Below are positions 46,571 through 56,025 of a DNA stretch of 64,000 nucleotides, piece after piece. Where the stretch lies: the NCBI RefSeq assembly GCF_024362485.1, contig NZ_CP101456.1, positions 1,736,001-1,800,000 on the forward strand, read 5' to 3'. Each line of letters begins with the position of its first letter. Within the stretch, counting starts at the first letter, position 1. The notes under the pieces are model-generated. The model ran no database searches and had not been told where the DNA came from. It saw only the letters and a program-made list of their open reading frames with translations. The stretch comes from Natronobeatus ordinarius. GTDB taxonomy: Archaea; Halobacteriota; Halobacteria; Halobacteriales; Natrialbaceae. A program made the translations under genes and the position numbers.

Positions 46571-48613
46571 CTACCGGTTCAGCCACGTGATCTGTTCGTC
46601 GTACGGGGCGTGGAACGACCACTCGACGTGCTGGCGGCGGTCGACGTAGATGTTGAAGCCCTCGACGTCGGGGCCAACGACGGCCGTCTCGAGCGAGAAG
46701 TCGACCATCGTCGTCGCGGACTCCTCGACGATGGTCGGCCAGATCTCGTCGTACAGCTCCCGCCGGGTGTCCTGGTCCTCTGCGGCGTCGACGGAGAACC
46801 GGCAGGCGCGATAGTCGTCCATCCAGTCGAACGTACCGTCCGGGAAGAACCAGTTGCAACAGATGTTGTGGTTGTCCGGATCGTGTAAGGCCTCGTTGTA
46901 GCCGTGGGGCTCCCAGGTGCCCGCCAGGCCGATCACGGTGGCGGCGTTTCGTTCGGAGTAGTCGAAGCGAGAGCCGTCGACCTGCAGCATCGTGGTCGAC
47001 CACTCGCCGATGTCCGCCGGCGTCTCCATCGTGGCGTCGAACAGCCCGCTCTCGTTGAGCTCGCTGACGATCAGCGTCACCTTGTCCTGTCGGGTCTCGT
47101 CGTCGGCGTTGGTCTCGATGGTGACCTCGACCGGCGGATCGAGGGGACTCTCCTCGATCAGTTCCTCGGCCGCGTCGTGGTCCGGTTCGGCCGGCAGTGC
47201 CCAGTCCGACGCGACGAGTTCATCGTAGGTCCCCTGGGTGGCGAGCGCCGACGGCGGTTCCGGGATCGGAACCTGGCCGGGTTCACCCCAGCCCATGTCG
47301 ACCACGTCGACGATCTCCTGTCGCGGGATCAGGTGTGCCAGTGCCTGCCGCACTTCCTGGTTCGCGAAGGCCCCGCCCTCGTCGGTGTCCTCGAGCGGGA
47401 ACGACATGAACTTGAAGCCAGTGGCGGGCTGGGAGTCGACGGTGAAGTCGGGATCCTGGTCGAACGCGTCACGCTCGGCGGCCGGCAACTCGTACGCGAG
47501 ATCGATCGATCCGTCCTGGAGGCCGGCGACGCGCGTTCCTTCCTCCGGGACGAACCGGATGTTGATCTCGTCGATGACCGGTGCTTCGGGGAAGTCGTCG
47601 GGGCCGTCCCACCACGCTTTGTTCTCGAGGCCGACCGTCTCGAGCCAGTAGTTGTCGCTGCGCTCGAGGAGGACCTGCTCGCCTTCGGTATACTCGACGA
47701 TCTGGTACGGACCCGTCCCGACCCAGTCTTCGGGCTCGAGTTCGCCCGGTGGGACGTCGTGTTGCGCTTCGGGAAAGATCGTCACGGGCGCCTCGAGCAA
47801 GGCACCCGCATCCGGCAGCTGATGGTACAGCTCGAACTCGTAGCCGTCCTCGCCCTCTGGAGCTTCGGCGTGTAAGAAGGCGTCGACGACCTGGCCGTGG
47901 AGGAGGCTGTCGACGTGGCGGTCGTAGGAGCCGATCAGGTCGCCTGCGGTCAGCTCCGTGCCGTCGTGGAACTCGATTCCCTCGTGGAAGCGGCCGCGAA
48001 CCATCGTTCCGTAGACGCCGTCGTCGACGGCGTCGCCAGCTTCGTCACGGGTGAGTACGCGGACGGTATCGCCTTCCTCGAGGTCACCCTCGGCCGCGGC
48101 GGCCATGTCCTCGGGATGGTGGATCAACACCGTGTTCGGCCAGTCAACTTCCTCGAGAACCGGTACGAAGACGCCTTCGTCCTCGTCTTCCTCGAGTTCC
48201 TCGATCTCGAGTTCCCGCATGTACGGCTCGTAGTCGAGTTCGTCGACGTCCTGTGCCTCGACGAGTTCGTACTCCTCGGCCATCCAGTTGTGTAACTCGC
48301 CGTCGAGGGACATCTCGTAGACGTCGTCGTAGACGGCGTTGAAGATGATCGAGTCGTCCGCGAGGACGGACATCACGAAATCCACGTGGTCCATCCCTGC
48401 CCGCTCGATGGCCAGTTCCAGTCGGCCCCCTTCCTGAATCTCGGCTGGATCGGCTACCTCGTCGTCGTCCCCTCCTTCTTCGTCTTCGTCGTCTTCGAAT
48501 CCGGCACACCCGGCTGTCACGACGGCGCCGGTGGCCGCGATTCCCTGCAGGAGACGTCGACGGTCGATACTTCCTGTCCGTACGTTGGATTCGTCGGTTG
48601 CTGGTGTAGTCAT
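46571..48613 (-). CDS. dppA: Peptide ABC transporter substrate-binding lipoprotein (canonical order)
   Basis: A 680-aa SBP_bac_5 protein, first gene of the dpp operon. The N-terminus carries a twin-arginine motif (RRRLLQG) and a lipobox (TAGCAG), followed by a very acidic linker, indicating a Tat-exported lipoprotein. The domain order is the normal one: lobe I begins near 85, a long acidic insert lies around 135-200, the EFHDGTELTAGD motif around 245, and the C-terminal segment ends with the FSLETAVVGPDVEGF strand. The ATG at 48613 is chosen because the frame to 48706 is not signal-like. Confidence 0.92.
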   Translation of the reverse strand: MTTPATDESNVRTGSIDRRRLLQGIAATGAVVTAGCAGFEDDEDEEGGDDDEVADPAEIQEGGRLELAIERAGMDHVDFVMSVLADDSIIFNAVYDDVYEMSLDGELHNWMAEEYELVEAQDVDELDYEPYMRELEIEELEEDEDEGVFVPVLEEVDWPNTVLIHHPEDMAAAAEGDLEEGDTVRVLTRDEAGDAVDDGVYGTMVRGRFHEGIEFHDGTELTAGDLIGSYDRHVDSLLHGQVVDAFLHAEAPEGEDGYEFELYHQLPDAGALLEAPVTIFPEAQHDVPPGELEPEDWVGTGPYQIVEYTEGEQVLLERSDNYWLETVGLENKAWWDGPDDFPEAPVIDEINIRFVPEEGTRVAGLQDGSIDLAYELPAAERDAFDQDPDFTVDSQPATGFKFMSFPLEDTDEGGAFANQEVRQALAHLIPRQEIVDVVDMGWGEPGQVPIPEPPSALATQGTYDELVASDWALPAEPDHDAAEELIEESPLDPPVEVTIETNADDETRQDKVTLIVSELNESGLFDATMETPADIGEWSTTMLQVDGSRFDYSERNAATVIGLAGTWEPHGYNEALHDPDNHNICCNWFFPDGTFDWMDDYRACRFSVDAAEDQDTRRELYDEIWPTIVEESATTMVDFSLETAVVGPDVEGFNIYVDRRQHVEWSFHAPYDEQITWLNR

Positions 48614-49641: not shown

Positions 49642-51387
49642 ATGAGTCGGTGCCCTCCAGCCGCTGACTCCCGTGTCAGCCGTCGCTCCTTTCTCGGGGC
49701 GATCGCGACGACGGGGCTAGCGCTCTCCGCGAGTGGTTGTATGGACGTGGTACAGAGCGCCGTCAGCGGGAGCCGAACCGAGCGGTCGTCGATCACGCTC
49801 GCGACGGTCCCCTCCGACGGCGACCGGGAAGGCGTGCAACTCGCTCGAGCACTCGCCGAGAACCTCGAGGCCGTCGGCCTGGCCGTCGACATCGACTACC
49901 TCTCTCCCGTCGAGTTCTACCGGACGGTGCTGCTCGAGGGGGCGTTCGACTGCTACGTCGGTCGCTACCCCGCTTTCACGGATCCTGACGTCCTCTACGA
50001 GGCGCTCCACTCCCGGTACGCCGACGAATCGGGCTGGCAGAACCCGTTCGGGTTCTCCAACACGGCGGTCGACGATCTCCTCGAGGAACAACGGACGACG
50101 GGAGGTGAGCGCCGCCGGGAGGTCGTCGTGGCGTTGCTCGAACGACTCACGGAAGAACAGCCGTTCGTACCGATCTGCGTCCCAGACGAGGTACGTGCCG
50201 TCCGGACGGACCGATTCGACGGCTGGGAGGGATCGCACCTCGCCACCCGGCTCGGCTACCTCGGTCTCACGTCGGGGGGCGACGACGCCGAGTTGACGAC
50301 GGTCGTCACCGACTCGCGTCCGACGCGAAACCTCAACCCCGTCGCGGCTCACTACCGGACTCACGGGCCGATCGTCGACCTGCTGTACGACTCGCTCGTC
50401 ACGGCGGACGAAGACGCGTACCGACCCTGGCTCGCGACGTCGATCGAGTGGGACGAGGGGATGGCAGCGATCACGCTCAGGGACGACCTCCGATTTCACG
50501 ACGGCGAGAACCTCACAGCCGCGGACGTCGCGTTCACCTACCAGTTTCTCGAGGACACCACCCTGGGTGCGGACGTCGTTCCGTCGCCGGCCCCGCGGTA
50601 TCGTGGCCGCTCGTCGATGGTCGAGGCGGTCGAGGTCGTCGACGAGCGGATGCTGTCGATCTCGGTCGACGCGGGGGACGACGTCCGGGAGCGGGCACTC
50701 ACGGTCCCCATTCTCCCCGAACACGTCTGGCGCGAACGAGTCGAGGCCGCGACCGACGCCGATCCAGCGGTCCGGCAGGGTCGATGGGAGGCGGTGACTG
50801 ACGAGTTCGCTCCCCCGATTGGAAGCGGCCCGTTCGTCCTCGACGATCGATCCGAACGCGATCACCTGACGCTCACGCGGTTCGAGGAGCACTTTACGCT
50901 CACCGACGACGCGCTCCCCGGCCCGACCACGGAGACAGTACGGATCGACGTCGAGCCCAGCAGTTTATCGGCCGTCGAACAGGTCGCCGACGGGACGGCC
51001 GACGTGACGACGTCGACGCTCGAGACACACGCCATCGAGGCGGCGACCGACCGGGAGACGGTCGAGGTACTCGAGTCGCCGTCCCGGACGTTCTACCACG
51101 TCGGGTTCAACGTTCGCCGCGAGCCGTTCACCACACCACAGGTTCGTCGCGCCGTCGCGGGACTCGTCGACGCGGCGTGGCTCGTCGACGCGGTCTTCGA
51201 CGGCCGTGCGACGCCGGTCGCGTCGGCGCTCTCGGATGACTGGCTTCCGGATTCGATCGCAGACGAGCGGCCGGCCACCACGTTCTTCGGCACCGACGGC
51301 GACCTCGACGTCGAAGCCGCTCGAGCGGTCTTCGAGGACGCCGGGTTCCGGTACGATCCAGCGCACGACCGCCTGGTGAGACGCTGA
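49642..51387 (+). CDS. Circularly permuted SBP_bac_5 lipoprotein, unit 1
   Basis: A 581-aa Tat lipoprotein (SRRSFLGAIATT; lipobox SASGC at about residue 33). Residues about 48-220 match what is normally the last part of peptide-binding proteins: the LATVPSD strand, NLEAVGLAVDIDYL, the YVGRYPAFTDPDVLYEALHS segment and EEQPFVPICVPDEV. Residues about 224-581 then match the normal beginning and middle (RPTRNLNPVAAHYR, LLYDSLVT, FHDGENLTAADVAFTY) and end at VFEDAGFRYDPAH, exactly where the usual C-terminal part would start. The family assignment is strong; the permutation is read by eye. The stop codon overlaps the next start (TGATG). Confidence 0.85.
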   Translation: MSRCPPAADSRVSRRSFLGAIATTGLALSASGCMDVVQSAVSGSRTERSSITLATVPSDGDREGVQLARALAENLEAVGLAVDIDYLSPVEFYRTVLLEGAFDCYVGRYPAFTDPDVLYEALHSRYADESGWQNPFGFSNTAVDDLLEEQRTTGGERRREVVVALLERLTEEQPFVPICVPDEVRAVRTDRFDGWEGSHLATRLGYLGLTSGGDDAELTTVVTDSRPTRNLNPVAAHYRTHGPIVDLLYDSLVTADEDAYRPWLATSIEWDEGMAAITLRDDLRFHDGENLTAADVAFTYQFLEDTTLGADVVPSPAPRYRGRSSMVEAVEVVDERMLSISVDAGDDVRERALTVPILPEHVWRERVEAATDADPAVRQGRWEAVTDEFAPPIGSGPFVLDDRSERDHLTLTRFEEHFTLTDDALPGPTTETVRIDVEPSSLSAVEQVADGTADVTTSTLETHAIEAATDRETVEVLESPSRTFYHVGFNVRREPFTTPQVRRAVAGLVDAAWLVDAVFDGRATPVASALSDDWLPDSIADERPATTFFGTDGDLDVEAARAVFEDAGFRYDPAHDRLVRR

Positions 51388-52223
51388 TGCTCACGGGCAT
51401 CCTCGCTCGAGTACTGCTCGTCGTGGTCGTCATGCTGGCCGTCTCGATTCCGCTCGTCGTGGGCCGCGACCGGCTTACGCGAACGGCTCGAGCGTGGCGA
51501 CCACGACTGCAGACGGCGGCCCCGATCGCCGCCGTCCTCGTCGTCGCCCTGTTGTTCAACCGGGTCGCCCGGGAGGCGTTTCCATCGATCTCCTGGCAGA
51601 TCGGCTGGAACGCGACGTCGACGTTCCATCGACTCGAGGGCGACTCGATCCTCGTCTTTCAGTCGTACGCGACGTCGGAGCTGACGGCGTACTTCACGTT
51701 CGTCTACGTCTACGGCTACGTCTTCTTGCTCGTCTTCCCCCTGGTCGCGTACTTCGCACTGTCGAACACCCGATACCTTCGCGAACTGCTGGCCGCGTAC
51801 ACGTTCAACTACACGCTCGGGCTGGTCTGTTACGTGTTCGTCATCGCGTACGGCCCTCGAAACGTGATGCCGGAGCTGCTCGACACCGTGCTCTACGACG
51901 CCTACCCGCAGTATCAACACCTTACCCGGGAGGTCAATCACAACACGAACGTCTTCCCCTCCCTGCACACGTCGCTCGCGACGACGGTCGCCATCTTCGC
52001 CTACCGGACGCACAGTGAGTATCCGACGTGGACGCCCATCGCGGTCGTCCTTGCAGGCAGCGTCGCGCTCTCGACGATGTATCTGGCGATCCACTGGGCG
52101 ATCGACGTCGTGGCCGGCGTCGTCCTCGCGGCCGTCAGCGTCGCGCTTGCGGCGACCGTCGTCGGGCGCGTGTCGCTTTCGCTGAGCCGTGAGCGCCTGT
52201 CACGCACGTTCCGGCGGGAGTGA
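51387..52223 (+). CDS. PAP2/Aur1-like membrane phosphatase, unit 1
   Basis: A 278-aa polytopic protein with about six transmembrane helices. The PAP2 motifs are FPSLHTS (about residues 190-196, with the catalytic His) and a later IHWAIDV (about 235-241, with the second His and Asp). The lysine/arginine motif 1 is not canonical; AYGPRNVMP is the best candidate. The PSLH variant is typical of the inositol-phosphotransferase/Aur1-like branch, which acts on lipid-linked phosphates at the outer membrane face. Translation is coupled to the preceding permuted binding protein. Confidence 0.87.
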   Translation: MLTGILARVLLVVVVMLAVSIPLVVGRDRLTRTARAWRPRLQTAAPIAAVLVVALLFNRVAREAFPSISWQIGWNATSTFHRLEGDSILVFQSYATSELTAYFTFVYVYGYVFLLVFPLVAYFALSNTRYLRELLAAYTFNYTLGLVCYVFVIAYGPRNVMPELLDTVLYDAYPQYQHLTREVNHNTNVFPSLHTSLATTVAIFAYRTHSEYPTWTPIAVVLAGSVALSTMYLAIHWAIDVVAGVVLAAVSVALAATVVGRVSLSLSRERLSRTFRRE

Positions 52224-52251
52224 CCGAGCTCTCCTCGCCCCCGGGTGTGCG

Positions 52252-52263
52252 CAATACTGTTAT
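52252..52263 (+). promoter_or_regulatory. Shared 12-base motif upstream of permuted SBP unit 2
   Basis: CAATACTGTTAT, identical to 49604-49615, ending 31 bases before the ATG at 52295. The surrounding bases differ between the two units, so the match is not simply an unbroken duplication. Confidence 0.6.
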
Positions 52264-52294
52264 AGCGGAGCGGCCAAACTCCGGTGAGATCCAG

Positions 52295-54043
52295 ATGGAT
52301 TCGGGACCGATCACTCAGACCGACGGCACGAGCCGTCGAGCTCTCCTCGCAGCGGCCGCAACCGGCGTCACGGCCGCAACGGCGGGCTGCGTTCGACAGG
52401 CCCGAAGCGTCATCACCCGCGACGCCGTCGATCGACTCTCGGTGACGATCGCGACCGTTCCATCCGACTACGACAGGGAAGCCGTACAGCTCGCCCGCCG
52501 GCTCGGCGACAACCTCGAGGCCGTCGGCATCGGCGTCTCCATCGACTTCCTGGCTCGCGATGAGTTACCCCGCGCGGTGCTCGTCAACCACGATTTCGAC
52601 CTCTACGTCGGTCGCCACCCCGACTTTACCGATCCCGACTTCCTCTACGAGGCGCTTCACTCCCGGTACGCCGACGAGTCGGGCTGGCAGAACCCCTTCG
52701 GCTTCACGAGTATGGCGTTCGACGAACTGCTCGAACGCCAGCGCACCCTCGAGGGTGAGCCACGACGGGGGGCCGTCGTCGACGTTCTCGAGGGGGTAGC
52801 CGAAGAACAGCCGTTCGTGCCGATCTGCGTCCCCGAAGAATACCGTCTCGTGCGCGACGATCGGGCCGGAGGTTGGGACGACGGCCACCTGGCGACCCGG
52901 CTCGGCTATCTCGGACTCGAGACGCCGGAGCGAGACGCGGAACTCCGGGCGGCCATCGTGGACACGCGGCCGACGAAGAACCTGAACCCGCTCTCGGTCG
53001 AGTACCGGGAACAGGGGACGGTCGTCGACCTGCTGTACGACTCGCTCGGCACGGTCGACGACGGCGAGCTTCGCCCGTGGCTCGCTCGCTCCTGGGAGTG
53101 GGACGGCTCGACGGCGACCGTCGAACTCAGGGAGGGCGTCCGCTGGCACGACGGTGAGGCACTCACGGCCGCGGACGTCGCGTTCACCTACCGGTTGCTC
53201 GAGGACACCACGCTCGGCGACGGATCGGTCCCGTCACCCGCCCCACGGTATCGCGGGCTCACCTCACTCGTCGACGAGATCGAGCTCGAGGACGAGCACA
53301 CGCTCTCGCTCTCGGTGACTGCAGGGCCCGACGTCGGATCGCGGGCGTTCACCGTCCCGATCCTGCCCGAACACGTCTGGGCCGACCGGACGGACGAGGC
53401 GTCGATTCCCGGCGTTCGAGTCGCTCAGGGAACGACCGAGGCGCTCGTCACGGACAACGTCCCGCCCGTCGGGAGCGGTCCGTTCGCGTTCGCCGAGCGA
53501 ACCGAACGCGACGTGCTCGTCCTCGAGCGGTTCGACGACCACTTCACGACGACCGACGACGCGCTCCCCGGCGCGACCGTCGAGCGACTCCGAATACTCG
53601 TCCACCCCCGAAGCACCTCGGCGATCGAGGCCGTCGAGGCGGGCGACGCCGACGTCACCATCACGCCGCTCGAGGCGTACTCGGTCGAGACGGTGTCCGA
53701 ATCGTCGTTGGTTCGACTGCTCACCTCCCCGTCGACGACGTTCTACCACGTCGGGTTTAACGCCAGAAACGCCCCGTTCAGCAACCCCTACTTCCGGCGA
53801 ACGGTGGCCGGCCTCCTCGACAAGGCGTGGCTCGTCGAGGAGGTGTTCGAGGGATACGCTCGGCCGATCGCGACGCCAGCCACCGACGCGTGGACCCCCG
53901 ACTCGCTCGCGTTCGAGGGCGAAGACCCGGCCGTCCCCTTCTTCGGCTCCGATGGCGAACTCGACGAGCGGGCGGCGAGATCGGCGTTCGAGGAGGCGGG
54001 CTTTCGCTACGACGAGGAGGGGCACCTCCTCGCGAGACACTGA
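52295..54043 (+). CDS. Circularly permuted SBP_bac_5 lipoprotein, unit 2
   Basis: A 582-aa paralog of the protein at 49642, with the same permuted order. A Tat signal (SRRALLAAAATG) and lipobox (TAGC) are followed by the C-terminal-type part (about 45-215, including YVGRHPDFTDPDFLYEALHS and EEQPFVPICVPEEY). Then comes the N-terminal-type part (about 222-582, with TKNLNPLS, LLYDSLGT, WHDGEALTAADVAFTY) and the end AFEEAGFRYDEEGHLL. The two copies share many identical blocks. The ATG at 52295 is chosen over an in-frame start at 52220, because it places the Tat motif near the N-terminus. Confidence 0.85.
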   Translation: MDSGPITQTDGTSRRALLAAAATGVTAATAGCVRQARSVITRDAVDRLSVTIATVPSDYDREAVQLARRLGDNLEAVGIGVSIDFLARDELPRAVLVNHDFDLYVGRHPDFTDPDFLYEALHSRYADESGWQNPFGFTSMAFDELLERQRTLEGEPRRGAVVDVLEGVAEEQPFVPICVPEEYRLVRDDRAGGWDDGHLATRLGYLGLETPERDAELRAAIVDTRPTKNLNPLSVEYREQGTVVDLLYDSLGTVDDGELRPWLARSWEWDGSTATVELREGVRWHDGEALTAADVAFTYRLLEDTTLGDGSVPSPAPRYRGLTSLVDEIELEDEHTLSLSVTAGPDVGSRAFTVPILPEHVWADRTDEASIPGVRVAQGTTEALVTDNVPPVGSGPFAFAERTERDVLVLERFDDHFTTTDDALPGATVERLRILVHPRSTSAIEAVEAGDADVTITPLEAYSVETVSESSLVRLLTSPSTTFYHVGFNARNAPFSNPYFRRTVAGLLDKAWLVEEVFEGYARPIATPATDAWTPDSLAFEGEDPAVPFFGSDGELDERAARSAFEEAGFRYDEEGHLLARH

Positions 54044-54051
54044 CCCTGACC

Positions 54052-54885
54052 ATGCTCATTCGCGTCCTCTTCCAGTTGACCGTCGTCGTCGCCCTCATGA
54101 TCCTCGTCGCGACGGCCGTCGTCGTCGGCCGCGACCGACTCGCCCGAACACGACGGGAGTTCCGAGCGCGAGTGAAGGCGGCGGCACCGATCACCGCCGT
54201 ACTCGCCGTCGTCTTGCTGTTCAACGGCGTCGCCCGGGAGACGGTACCCGATATCTCGTGGACGATCGGCTGGGAGGTGACCGGGACGATCTACGAGTTC
54301 GAGGGCGAGTTCATCGTCTGGCTCCAGGACCTGGCGACGCCGTGGACGACGGCGTACTTCTCGTTCGTCTACGTCTACGGCTACGTCTTCTTGCTCGTGT
54401 TCCCCCTGATCGCGTACTTCGCGCTGGCAGACACCCGACCGCTTCGCGAGCTGTTGACTGCGTACACGCTCAACTACGTGCTCGGGCTGGTCTGTTACGT
54501 GCTTATCATCGCCTACGGGCCCCGGAACGTGATGCCCGAACTCGTCGACGCCTTGCTGTACGACACGTACCCGCAGTACCAGCACCTCACCCGGCAGGTC
54601 AACCGAAACACCAACGTCTTCCCTTCGCTGCACACCTCCCTCGCCGCCACGGTCGCCTTCATCGCCTACCGGACCAGGGACGTCTACCCGGTCTGGTTCG
54701 CCGTCGCGACCGTCCTCGGGCTCAGCGTCGCGGTCTCGACGATGTACCTCGGCATCCACTGGGTGGTCGACGTCGTCGCGGGCATCGTTCTCGCGGCCGT
54801 CAGCGTCGTCCTCGCCGCCCACTTCGTCGGCCGCTGGTCGATCACCGAGCGACTCGAGCACCGGTGGCCCTTCGCCAGCGGCTGA
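54052..54885 (+). CDS. PAP2/Aur1-like membrane phosphatase, unit 2
   Basis: A 277-aa paralog of the membrane protein at 51387, starting 8 bases after the second permuted binding protein. The motifs FPSLHTS (about 190) and IHWVVDVVAG (about 235) are conserved, as are the FVYVYGYVFLLVFPL helix and the RNVMPEL and YPQYQHLTR segments. The long loop sequence NVFPSLHTSLA is identical in both. Its partnership with a permuted binding protein is thus duplicated as a unit. Confidence 0.87.
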   Translation: MLIRVLFQLTVVVALMILVATAVVVGRDRLARTRREFRARVKAAAPITAVLAVVLLFNGVARETVPDISWTIGWEVTGTIYEFEGEFIVWLQDLATPWTTAYFSFVYVYGYVFLLVFPLIAYFALADTRPLRELLTAYTLNYVLGLVCYVLIIAYGPRNVMPELVDALLYDTYPQYQHLTRQVNRNTNVFPSLHTSLAATVAFIAYRTRDVYPVWFAVATVLGLSVAVSTMYLGIHWVVDVVAGIVLAAVSVVLAAHFVGRWSITERLEHRWPFASG

Positions 54886-56025
54886 TCACCCGTCCTCGAG
54901 AAACGCCTCGTCGCCGTGGGTCTCCCGGAGCTCCCGGAGGTGTGCTCGTCCCTCGAGCAACCGCTCGGTCGGTTCGGCGTAGGTGTACTCGAACATGTCG
55001 TCGGGGTCGCCCTCGTAGGCTTCGGCGCGATCGACGGCGTCGGCGAGCGTCTCGTCGATCGCCGACTCGATGGCGTCGATCCGTTCGTCCTCGAGCAGAC
55101 CCCGCTCTCGGAGGTAGGCTTCGAAGCGTGCGATCGGGTCGCGTTCTTTCCACTGGTTCACCTCCGCCTCGTTCCGGTAGACGGTCGGATCGTCCGCCGT
55201 CGTGTGTGCGCCAAAGCGGTACTGGACGGCCTCGACCATCGTGGGTCGCGCCTCGCCGTCGGCCGGGTTCGCGGCCCGCTCGCGGACCGCCTCGGTCACG
55301 ACGTACGTCGCGAGCGGGTCCATCCCGTCGACCTGGATCCCGTCGAAGCCGTAGGCGCGGGCTTTCCCGGCGAACGTCGCTGACGCCGTCTGCTTCTCTC
55401 GGGGCGTCGAGATCGCCCACTGGTTGTTGTTACAGAAGAAGACGATCGGGACGTCGTAGACGCCCGCGAAGTTCGCCGCCTCGTGGAAATCCCCCTCCGA
55501 GGTCGACCCTTCCCCGAAGTGAACGAGGGTGACGCCGTCGTCGCCGTTCAGTTTCGCCGCCCACGCGTACCCGACCGCGTGGGGGAGGTGCCCGCCGATC
55601 GAAATGTTGAGCGGGAAGACGCCGACGTCGGGCAGCGCCGCGTTCCCGACCTCGTGACCCATCCAGTACAGCAGGTACTCCCACGGGAACCCTCGCGAGA
55701 GAACGGCCCCGTGCTCGCGATACTGGTAAGAGATCGTGTCGTCGTCGGCGAGTGCGTACGTCGAGCCGATCTGTGACCCCTCCTGGCCGGCCAGCGAGGC
55801 GTACGTCCCCAGCCGCCCCTGGCGCTGGAGGCTGATCATCCGCTCGTCGAAGCGGCGACACAGGCGCATGTCACGGTACATCGATACCAGCGTCTCCTCG
55901 TCGAGGTCCGGCTCGAGCGCCGGCGCGACCACGGTTCCGTCGGCATCGAGCACCGACACCTGGTCGTCCGGTGCCCGGTCGAACACGCCCACGCCCCCCG
56001 CCTGGTCAGGTACGTCTCGAGTCAT
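54886..56025 (-). CDS. 2-oxoacid dehydrogenase E1 component, alpha subunit
   Basis: A 379-aa thiamine-diphosphate-dependent E1-alpha of the pyruvate/branched-chain 2-oxoacid dehydrogenase type. The ThDP motif GEGSTSEGDFHEAANFAG...CNNN (about residues 170-205), the RQGRLGTYASLAGQEG start and the AHTTADDPTVYR phosphorylation-loop equivalent are intact. The E1-beta, E2 and E3 genes that normally follow are not adjacent. The partner is probably encoded elsewhere, or this copy is specialised. Confidence 0.92.
   Translation of the reverse strand: MTRDVPDQAGGVGVFDRAPDDQVSVLDADGTVVAPALEPDLDEETLVSMYRDMRLCRRFDERMISLQRQGRLGTYASLAGQEGSQIGSTYALADDDTISYQYREHGAVLSRGFPWEYLLYWMGHEVGNAALPDVGVFPLNISIGGHLPHAVGYAWAAKLNGDDGVTLVHFGEGSTSEGDFHEAANFAGVYDVPIVFFCNNNQWAISTPREKQTASATFAGKARAYGFDGIQVDGMDPLATYVVTEAVRERAANPADGEARPTMVEAVQYRFGAHTTADDPTVYRNEAEVNQWKERDPIARFEAYLRERGLLEDERIDAIESAIDETLADAVDRAEAYEGDPDDMFEYTYAEPTERLLEGRAHLRELRETHGDEAFLEDG

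Follow-up and report, generated by a model that had tools for sequence, protein, structure and literature searches.

Two tandem two-gene units were identified in a 64,000-nucleotide stretch of the Natronobeatus ordinarius genome (hereafter the window), each pairing a gene for a twin-arginine translocation (Tat) lipoprotein of the SBP_bac_5 type of substrate-binding protein (SBP) with a gene for a membrane enzyme of the PAP2 family (SBP-1/PAP2-1 and SBP-2/PAP2-2, Table 1). Both SBPs are circularly permuted, and the SBP-PAP2 pair is shown to be a conserved two-gene module across Halobacteria, the PAP2 gene being nearly always the direct downstream neighbor of the SBP gene. We give roughly even weight, for and against, to the reading that the SBP and the Aur1-like PAP2 enzyme of each unit work as an obligate pair at the outer face of the membrane. 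A broader proposal is put forward only tentatively, namely that a binding lipoprotein derived from an ATP-binding cassette (ABC) importer now acts as a subunit dedicated to presenting ligand to an extracytoplasmic Aur1-like enzyme that transfers phosphoryl groups, and that this arose within a family repeatedly permuted at a single hot spot, both in archaea and in bacteria.

The gene coordinates agree with those of the original prediction, a reading made from the letters of this DNA alone, as do the TGATG overlap at the SBP-1/PAP2-1 junction (−1 nt), the 8-base gap between SBP-2 and PAP2-2, and the absence of any ABC gene within either unit. The two SBPs score 145 and 158 bits against SBP_bac_5 (PF00496, cut-off 32.4), and both carry the Tat RR motif and the lipobox Cys, which are invariant across the PAP2-linked family. 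The PAP2 proteins likewise exceed their cut-offs, with 65–72 bits for PF14378 (cut-off 27.0) and 42–47 bits for PF01569 (cut-off 27.2).

The prediction that the segment which normally ends the SBP_bac_5 chain had moved to its start was borne out for both SBPs by swapped matches, by the score gained upon rotation and by a shuffle control. In both SBPs the Pfam match covers only positions 1–282 of the 368-position profile and runs almost to the C-terminus (residues 258–574 of 582 in SBP-2), and a sequence search of the PDB aligned SBP-2 residues 243–570 with 48–344 of AppA (1xoc) and, weakly, residues 47–186 with 359–495, that is, in swapped order. A canonical profile was built from the canonical SBP_bac_5 proteins of the Natronobeatus genome and canonical-order haloarchaeal relatives (L197–L207). 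In native order the SBPs gave two swapped matches to this profile, which became a single match (profile 39–509) when the chains were rotated at ~215–221; this rotation also gave the top score, raising it from 161 to 176 for SBP-2 and from 144 to 176 for SBP-1, while 100 shuffles of the N-terminal segment reached a maximum of 165. The neighboring DppA, which the original prediction had offered as a contrast in ordinary order, is indeed canonical in this comparison, as are five other SBPs of the same genome. The AlphaFold2 model of SBP-2 (predicted local distance difference test (pLDDT) 88.6, predicted template modelling score 0.86) describes a single well-defined protein. Foldseek aligned it in chain order with template modelling (TM) scores ≤0.46 over ~400 columns, which is compatible with permutation and no proof of it; such a partial alignment is expected for a permuted SBP since Foldseek is unable to rotate chains. 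Among the PDB sequences found by phmmer there was no permuted member.

The swapped order might instead reflect an unrelated extra domain placed ahead of a truncated SBP, and the N-terminal segment taken alone does match weakly (≤30 bits in PAP2-linked proteins). We find this hardly credible, however, since the segment matches precisely the C-terminal part that is missing, rotation yields one alignment where shuffles do not, and the structure model is that of one well-defined protein. The swap is moreover clear in a second permuted family (family ii, see below), where the N-terminal segment scores 175–237 bits and the nearest canonical-order relatives are 46–49% identical.

The pairing of the two genes proved far more conserved than could have been known from this DNA alone. 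Across 292 Halobacteria genomes, counting strong matches only, 190 have both genes, one has the SBP only, none has the PAP2 only and 101 have neither; as the genomes are phylogenetically related, the co-occurrence statistics, including the Fisher p, are descriptive only. The sole SBP-only genome (G131) carries an ABC-linked relative (L196). A separate scan returned 259 matches, of which the best 80 are all haloarchaeal, and no full-length match to the PAP2-linked family was found in 120 genomes of the phylum outside Halobacteria. Adjacency was counted in 117 neighborhoods, some genomes being fetched twice, and here the PAP2 gene stands directly downstream of 142 of 161 SBP genes, with the two genes overlapping or no more than 20 nt apart in most cases. 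Of the other 19 SBPs, 17 are a second SBP right behind an SBP-PAP2 unit, and the remaining two are one Halorussus amylolyticus locus fetched twice (L069 8139–9935 = L123), in a genome with a complete pair elsewhere (L070). At all six PAP2 loci inspected, five of which were chosen because no neighboring SBP was listed, an SBP lies directly upstream. Flanking genes are not consistently shared, which suggests that SBP and PAP2 move as a unit. A conserved third gene was looked for and none was found; whatever the flanks share is either an antisense shadow frame or a gene at a distance of several kb. The partners also diverge together: SBP and PAP2 distances correlate with r = 0.91 (mean 0.72, maximum 0.80 when partners are swapped within genomes), and tandem units keep their own partners, all 253 of 253 comparisons in two-unit genomes being concordant, with both genes following position. 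In several genomes, among them Natrinema and Halovivax, SBP-PAP2-SBP arrangements provide two SBPs per PAP2 (L036, L040, L093–L118, L126).

No consistently linked importer gene was found around the 161 SBPs; DppB/C/D-like genes occur within 6 kb in eight of these cases and belong to separate operons in the examples inspected. This bears on whether the two genes might merely be co-regulated, the SBP feeding an ABC importer encoded elsewhere and the PAP2 enzyme processing a related compound (e.g., by releasing phosphate before uptake) without contact between them. Judged by gene context, sister permuted SBPs are subunits of importers, and a full Dpp operon lies next door in the genome; both fit such an arrangement. 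We nevertheless consider it quite unlikely given the lack of a linked importer, and because neither the partner fidelity of tandem units nor the loss of the acidic linker described below would be expected from it.

The PAP2 family assignment made in the original prediction stands, although the term phosphatase was too firm: neither the C1 motif KX6RP nor the C3 Arg is present, and by fold the enzyme is closest to the phosphotransferases inositol phosphorylceramide (IPC) synthase and Aur1. The PAP2-2 model (pLDDT 93.3) has its best PDB matches in structures of IPC synthase and Aur1-Kei1 (9vj4, E 4e-4, TM 0.50; 9ivc, E 6e-4). Compared with the PgpB-type motifs (C1 KX6RP, C2 PSGH, C3 SRX5HX3D), C1 is absent (YGPRN), C2 reads PSLH and C3 reads STX5HX3D; His194 (of PSLH), His236, Asp240 and Arg158 do not vary among 50 homologs. 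Without a C1 motif or the C3 Arg, transferase activity appears as likely as hydrolysis. The inner loops are basic and the catalytic loops poor in Lys and Arg, a pattern that predicts an outward-facing active site, with the catalytic residues on the same side as the SBP. A role as archaetidylglycerol- or archaetidylinositol-phosphate phosphatase was considered and set aside, since an essential lipid step would not be expected to be so patchily distributed (190/292); PMC9385802 calls the phosphatase for the inositol lipid unidentified.

The PAP2-linked SBPs differ from their relatives at the membrane anchor and near the presumed ligand site. In the stretch of 25 residues that follows the lipidated Cys the net charge averages +1.0 in PAP2-linked SBPs, compared with −6.2 in ABC-linked permuted and −5.9 in canonical ones, and a short basic membrane-proximal helix takes the place of the flexible acidic linker. 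The QNP of a GWQNP motif is present in every PAP2-linked SBP examined and in no other SBP aligned. In OppA and DppA an Asp binds the amino end of the peptide. Its counterpart is not conserved in PAP2-linked SBPs, which counts against a peptide as ligand and is not decisive, as ABC-linked relatives vary there too.

These features can be brought together in a model in which the ancestor of the SBP would have been a permuted SBP in the service of an ABC importer. In one lineage the importer would have been lost and the SBP would have come to work exclusively with an Aur1-like PAP2 enzyme, held against the membrane by its lipid anchor and short basic helix. There it may bind a specific ligand and either offer this to the active site of PAP2 or switch that site on. 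In the reaction a phosphate-bearing group, possibly of a lipid or isoprenoid, would be either hydrolyzed or transferred. The SBP may, as envisaged in the original prediction, capture a ligand for dephosphorylation. Several points weigh against the model. Gene pairing speaks for functional coupling and not for physical contact; the anchor and motif differences stem from one clade and hence are not independent observations; and an ABC core encoded elsewhere might still be served by the SBP. In addition, some genomes have two SBPs per PAP2 and one Halorussus amylolyticus SBP has no adjacent PAP2, which means that a 1:1 stoichiometry is not required.

Much of the same evidence would also suit an SBP that carries no substrate and acts as a regulatory or scaffolding subunit of PAP2, as reported for LpqZ and FecB with AftA and AftB. 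Importer-less SBP-fold lipoproteins that bind a membrane enzyme provide the precedent (PMC12802301), and the obligate pairing, the short basic anchor and the ability of one PAP2 to serve two SBPs are all in keeping with it. We judge this somewhat unlikely, as the segment near the ligand site in canonical SBPs is strictly conserved here as GWQNP, which would favor a real ligand, whereas the pocket of the mycobacterial SBPs is reported to be less conserved (PMC12802301).

The original prediction had implied a tie between permutation and PAP2, and this was not upheld. Permutation was rejected as a hallmark of PAP2 coupling because permuted SBPs are common in haloarchaeal ABC operons and are present in Alphaproteobacteria. 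Homologs beside ABC permeases and lacking a PAP2 gene, which the original prediction had named as evidence against its functional proposal, occur in the wider permuted group and not in the PAP2-linked clade. As many as 41 of 106 SBP_bac_5 matches in 24 haloarchaeal genomes stop near profile position 255–290, a proxy for permutation that was checked on 20 loci; 19 of these count as permuted by the rule applied and the remaining one by position, and their neighbors are ABC genes (14), PAP2 (5) or neither (1). A second permuted SBP type heads a DppBCDF operon at L050 16333–17976 (− strand), and in Haloterrigena-type genomes (L050, L120) the SBP-PAP2 unit is convergent with such a permuted-SBP ABC operon, ~0.6–1.5 kb apart. 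Family ii (L188–L207), which is always found in ABC operons, contains permuted members, from Natrialbaceae and some other haloarchaea, alongside canonical ones: the permuted members (L188–L196) head complete DppBCDF operons and have canonical-order relatives (L197–L203) at 46–49% identity. Family iii (L208–L227) is permuted, nearly all ABC-linked and cut identically to the PAP2-linked proteins. Permuted members also occur in the long DppA-like group that includes the canonical DppA of the window (L239, L248–L251), where they appear to represent another recent chain-order switch. Permutation was also found in Alphaproteobacteria, in each of three plasmid proteins checked; all three lie in ABC operons, and an M28 peptidase gene adjoins two of them. 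Across haloarchaea, another archaeal class and Alphaproteobacteria, many permuted SBP_bac_5 proteins are encoded in complete DppBCDF operons.

A tree of 80 proteins, based on the shared segment, needs eight chain-order changes, seven of them forced by supported branches, and a single origin of permutation was rejected, as none of the bootstrap trees shows one (0%). The cut sites lie at about profile 318–336, 337–341 and 350–366, within ~50 profile positions of one fold region. The PAP2-linked SBPs form one clade (100/100) within a permuted group that also holds family iii and bacterial proteins, the outer branch of this group having moderate support (94/79). From this nesting among ABC-linked SBPs we infer that the chain was permuted before the partner changed. 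Since permuted SBPs are common in ABC operons, permutation would predate the PAP2 link and be compatible with import. A 1011-aa open reading frame at L280 6855–9890 (+ strand), upstream of a DppB-like gene, contains two SBP_bac_5 copies fused head to tail and is a candidate living intermediate of permutation by duplication.

Table 1 Features of the two SBP-PAP2 units and related loci (window positions unless a locus is given).
Feature	Coordinates	Strand	Description
SBP-1 (P0001, 581 aa)	49642..51387	+	Tat lipoprotein, circularly permuted SBP_bac_5; Tat signal model TIGR01409 over cut-off
PAP2-1 (P0002, 278 aa)	51387..52223	+	PAP2_3/Aur1-like membrane enzyme; PF14378 8.9e-18
SBP-2 (P0003, 582 aa)	52295..54043	+	Tat lipoprotein, circularly permuted SBP_bac_5
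PAP2-2 (P0004, 277 aa)	54052..54885	+	PAP2_3/Aur1-like
SBP-2 residues 32-47	52388..52435	+	Lipidated Cys32, then conserved basic helix CVRQARSVITRDAVDR, replacing the usual acidic linker
SBP-2 residues 45-214, displaced segment	52427..52936	+	Homologous to the canonical SBP_bac_5 C-terminal part
SBP-2 residues 128-136, ESGWQNPFG motif	52676..52702	+	
SBP-2 residues 216-582	52940..54040	+	Homologous to the canonical SBP_bac_5 N-terminal and middle parts; chain end is the permutation point (AFEEAGFRY...)
DppA	46571..48613	-	Canonical order, complete Dpp operon in the window; internal contrast, outside the module
Permuted SBP_bac_5 of Alphaproteobacteria (Ketogulonicigenium, Nitratireductor, Roseomonas plasmids)	L282 4998-6674, L283 4920-6518, L284 4902-6587		ABC operons

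A third, more divergent SBP-PAP2 pair lies elsewhere in the same genome (G000 C1:3038000–3041100; L035 8325–11119), with 36% and 49% identity and a gap of ~170 nt. In the window, PAP2-2 and a convergent pyruvate dehydrogenase E1-alpha-like gene (54886–56025, − strand) end at adjacent bases (54885/54886).

The module, present in about two thirds of the sampled haloarchaeal genomes, is annotated merely as ‘ABC transporter substrate-binding protein’ and ‘phosphatase PAP2 family protein’, and experiments that look for an importer would miss the probable partner of the SBP. Whether natural circular permutation is frequent was described in PMC2096629 as an open question, and in the open-access literature we found nothing relevant on natural permutation in SBPs or on haloarchaeal SBP-PAP2 pairs. 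Here one family offers at least seven supported switches, with canonical and permuted relatives at 46–49% identity that can be compared directly, and since permutation relocates the lipid anchor on the fold, it supplies a testable reason for selection.

Among known systems, the SBP_bac_5/cluster C proteins AppA (1xoc), DppA and OppA are homologous to the PAP2-linked SBPs over their full length once these are rotated, and a Tat signal and lipobox are usual in haloarchaea; the PAP2-linked SBPs differ in being permuted, in having a PAP2 gene instead of an ABC core in the operon, and in the basic helix and GWQNP. The permuted SBPs of ABC operons (families ii and iii and those of Ketogulonicigenium, Nitratireductor and Roseomonas) have undergone the same type of rearrangement, and family iii shares both cut site and permuted tree group with the PAP2-linked SBPs; these proteins, however, belong to complete DppBCDF operons, and the haloarchaeal ones keep the acidic linker after the Cys. 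Aur1/IPC synthase and the PAP2 lipid phosphatases (9vj4, 9ivc, LpxE 6ebu, PgpB) belong to the same PAP2_3 family, of which the His-His-Asp set is invariant here, whereas the haloarchaeal enzyme is only ~18% identical to them, lacks KX6RP, has Thr for the C3 Arg and is paired with an SBP lipoprotein. Closest in organization are the mycobacterial pairs LpqZ-AftA and FecB-AftB, presented in PMC12802301 as orphan SBP-like lipoproteins associated with arabinosyltransferases. They, and also LpqW, resemble the haloarchaeal pair in that an importer-less SBP-fold lipoprotein is associated with a membrane enzyme, in the haloarchaeal case by gene pairing and partner fidelity, and differ from it in their SBP types, glycosyltransferase partners and orphan genes, with permutation not reported there. 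The haloarchaeal module would extend the idea of an orphan SBP as enzyme partner from mycobacteria to Archaea and to lipid-phosphate chemistry.

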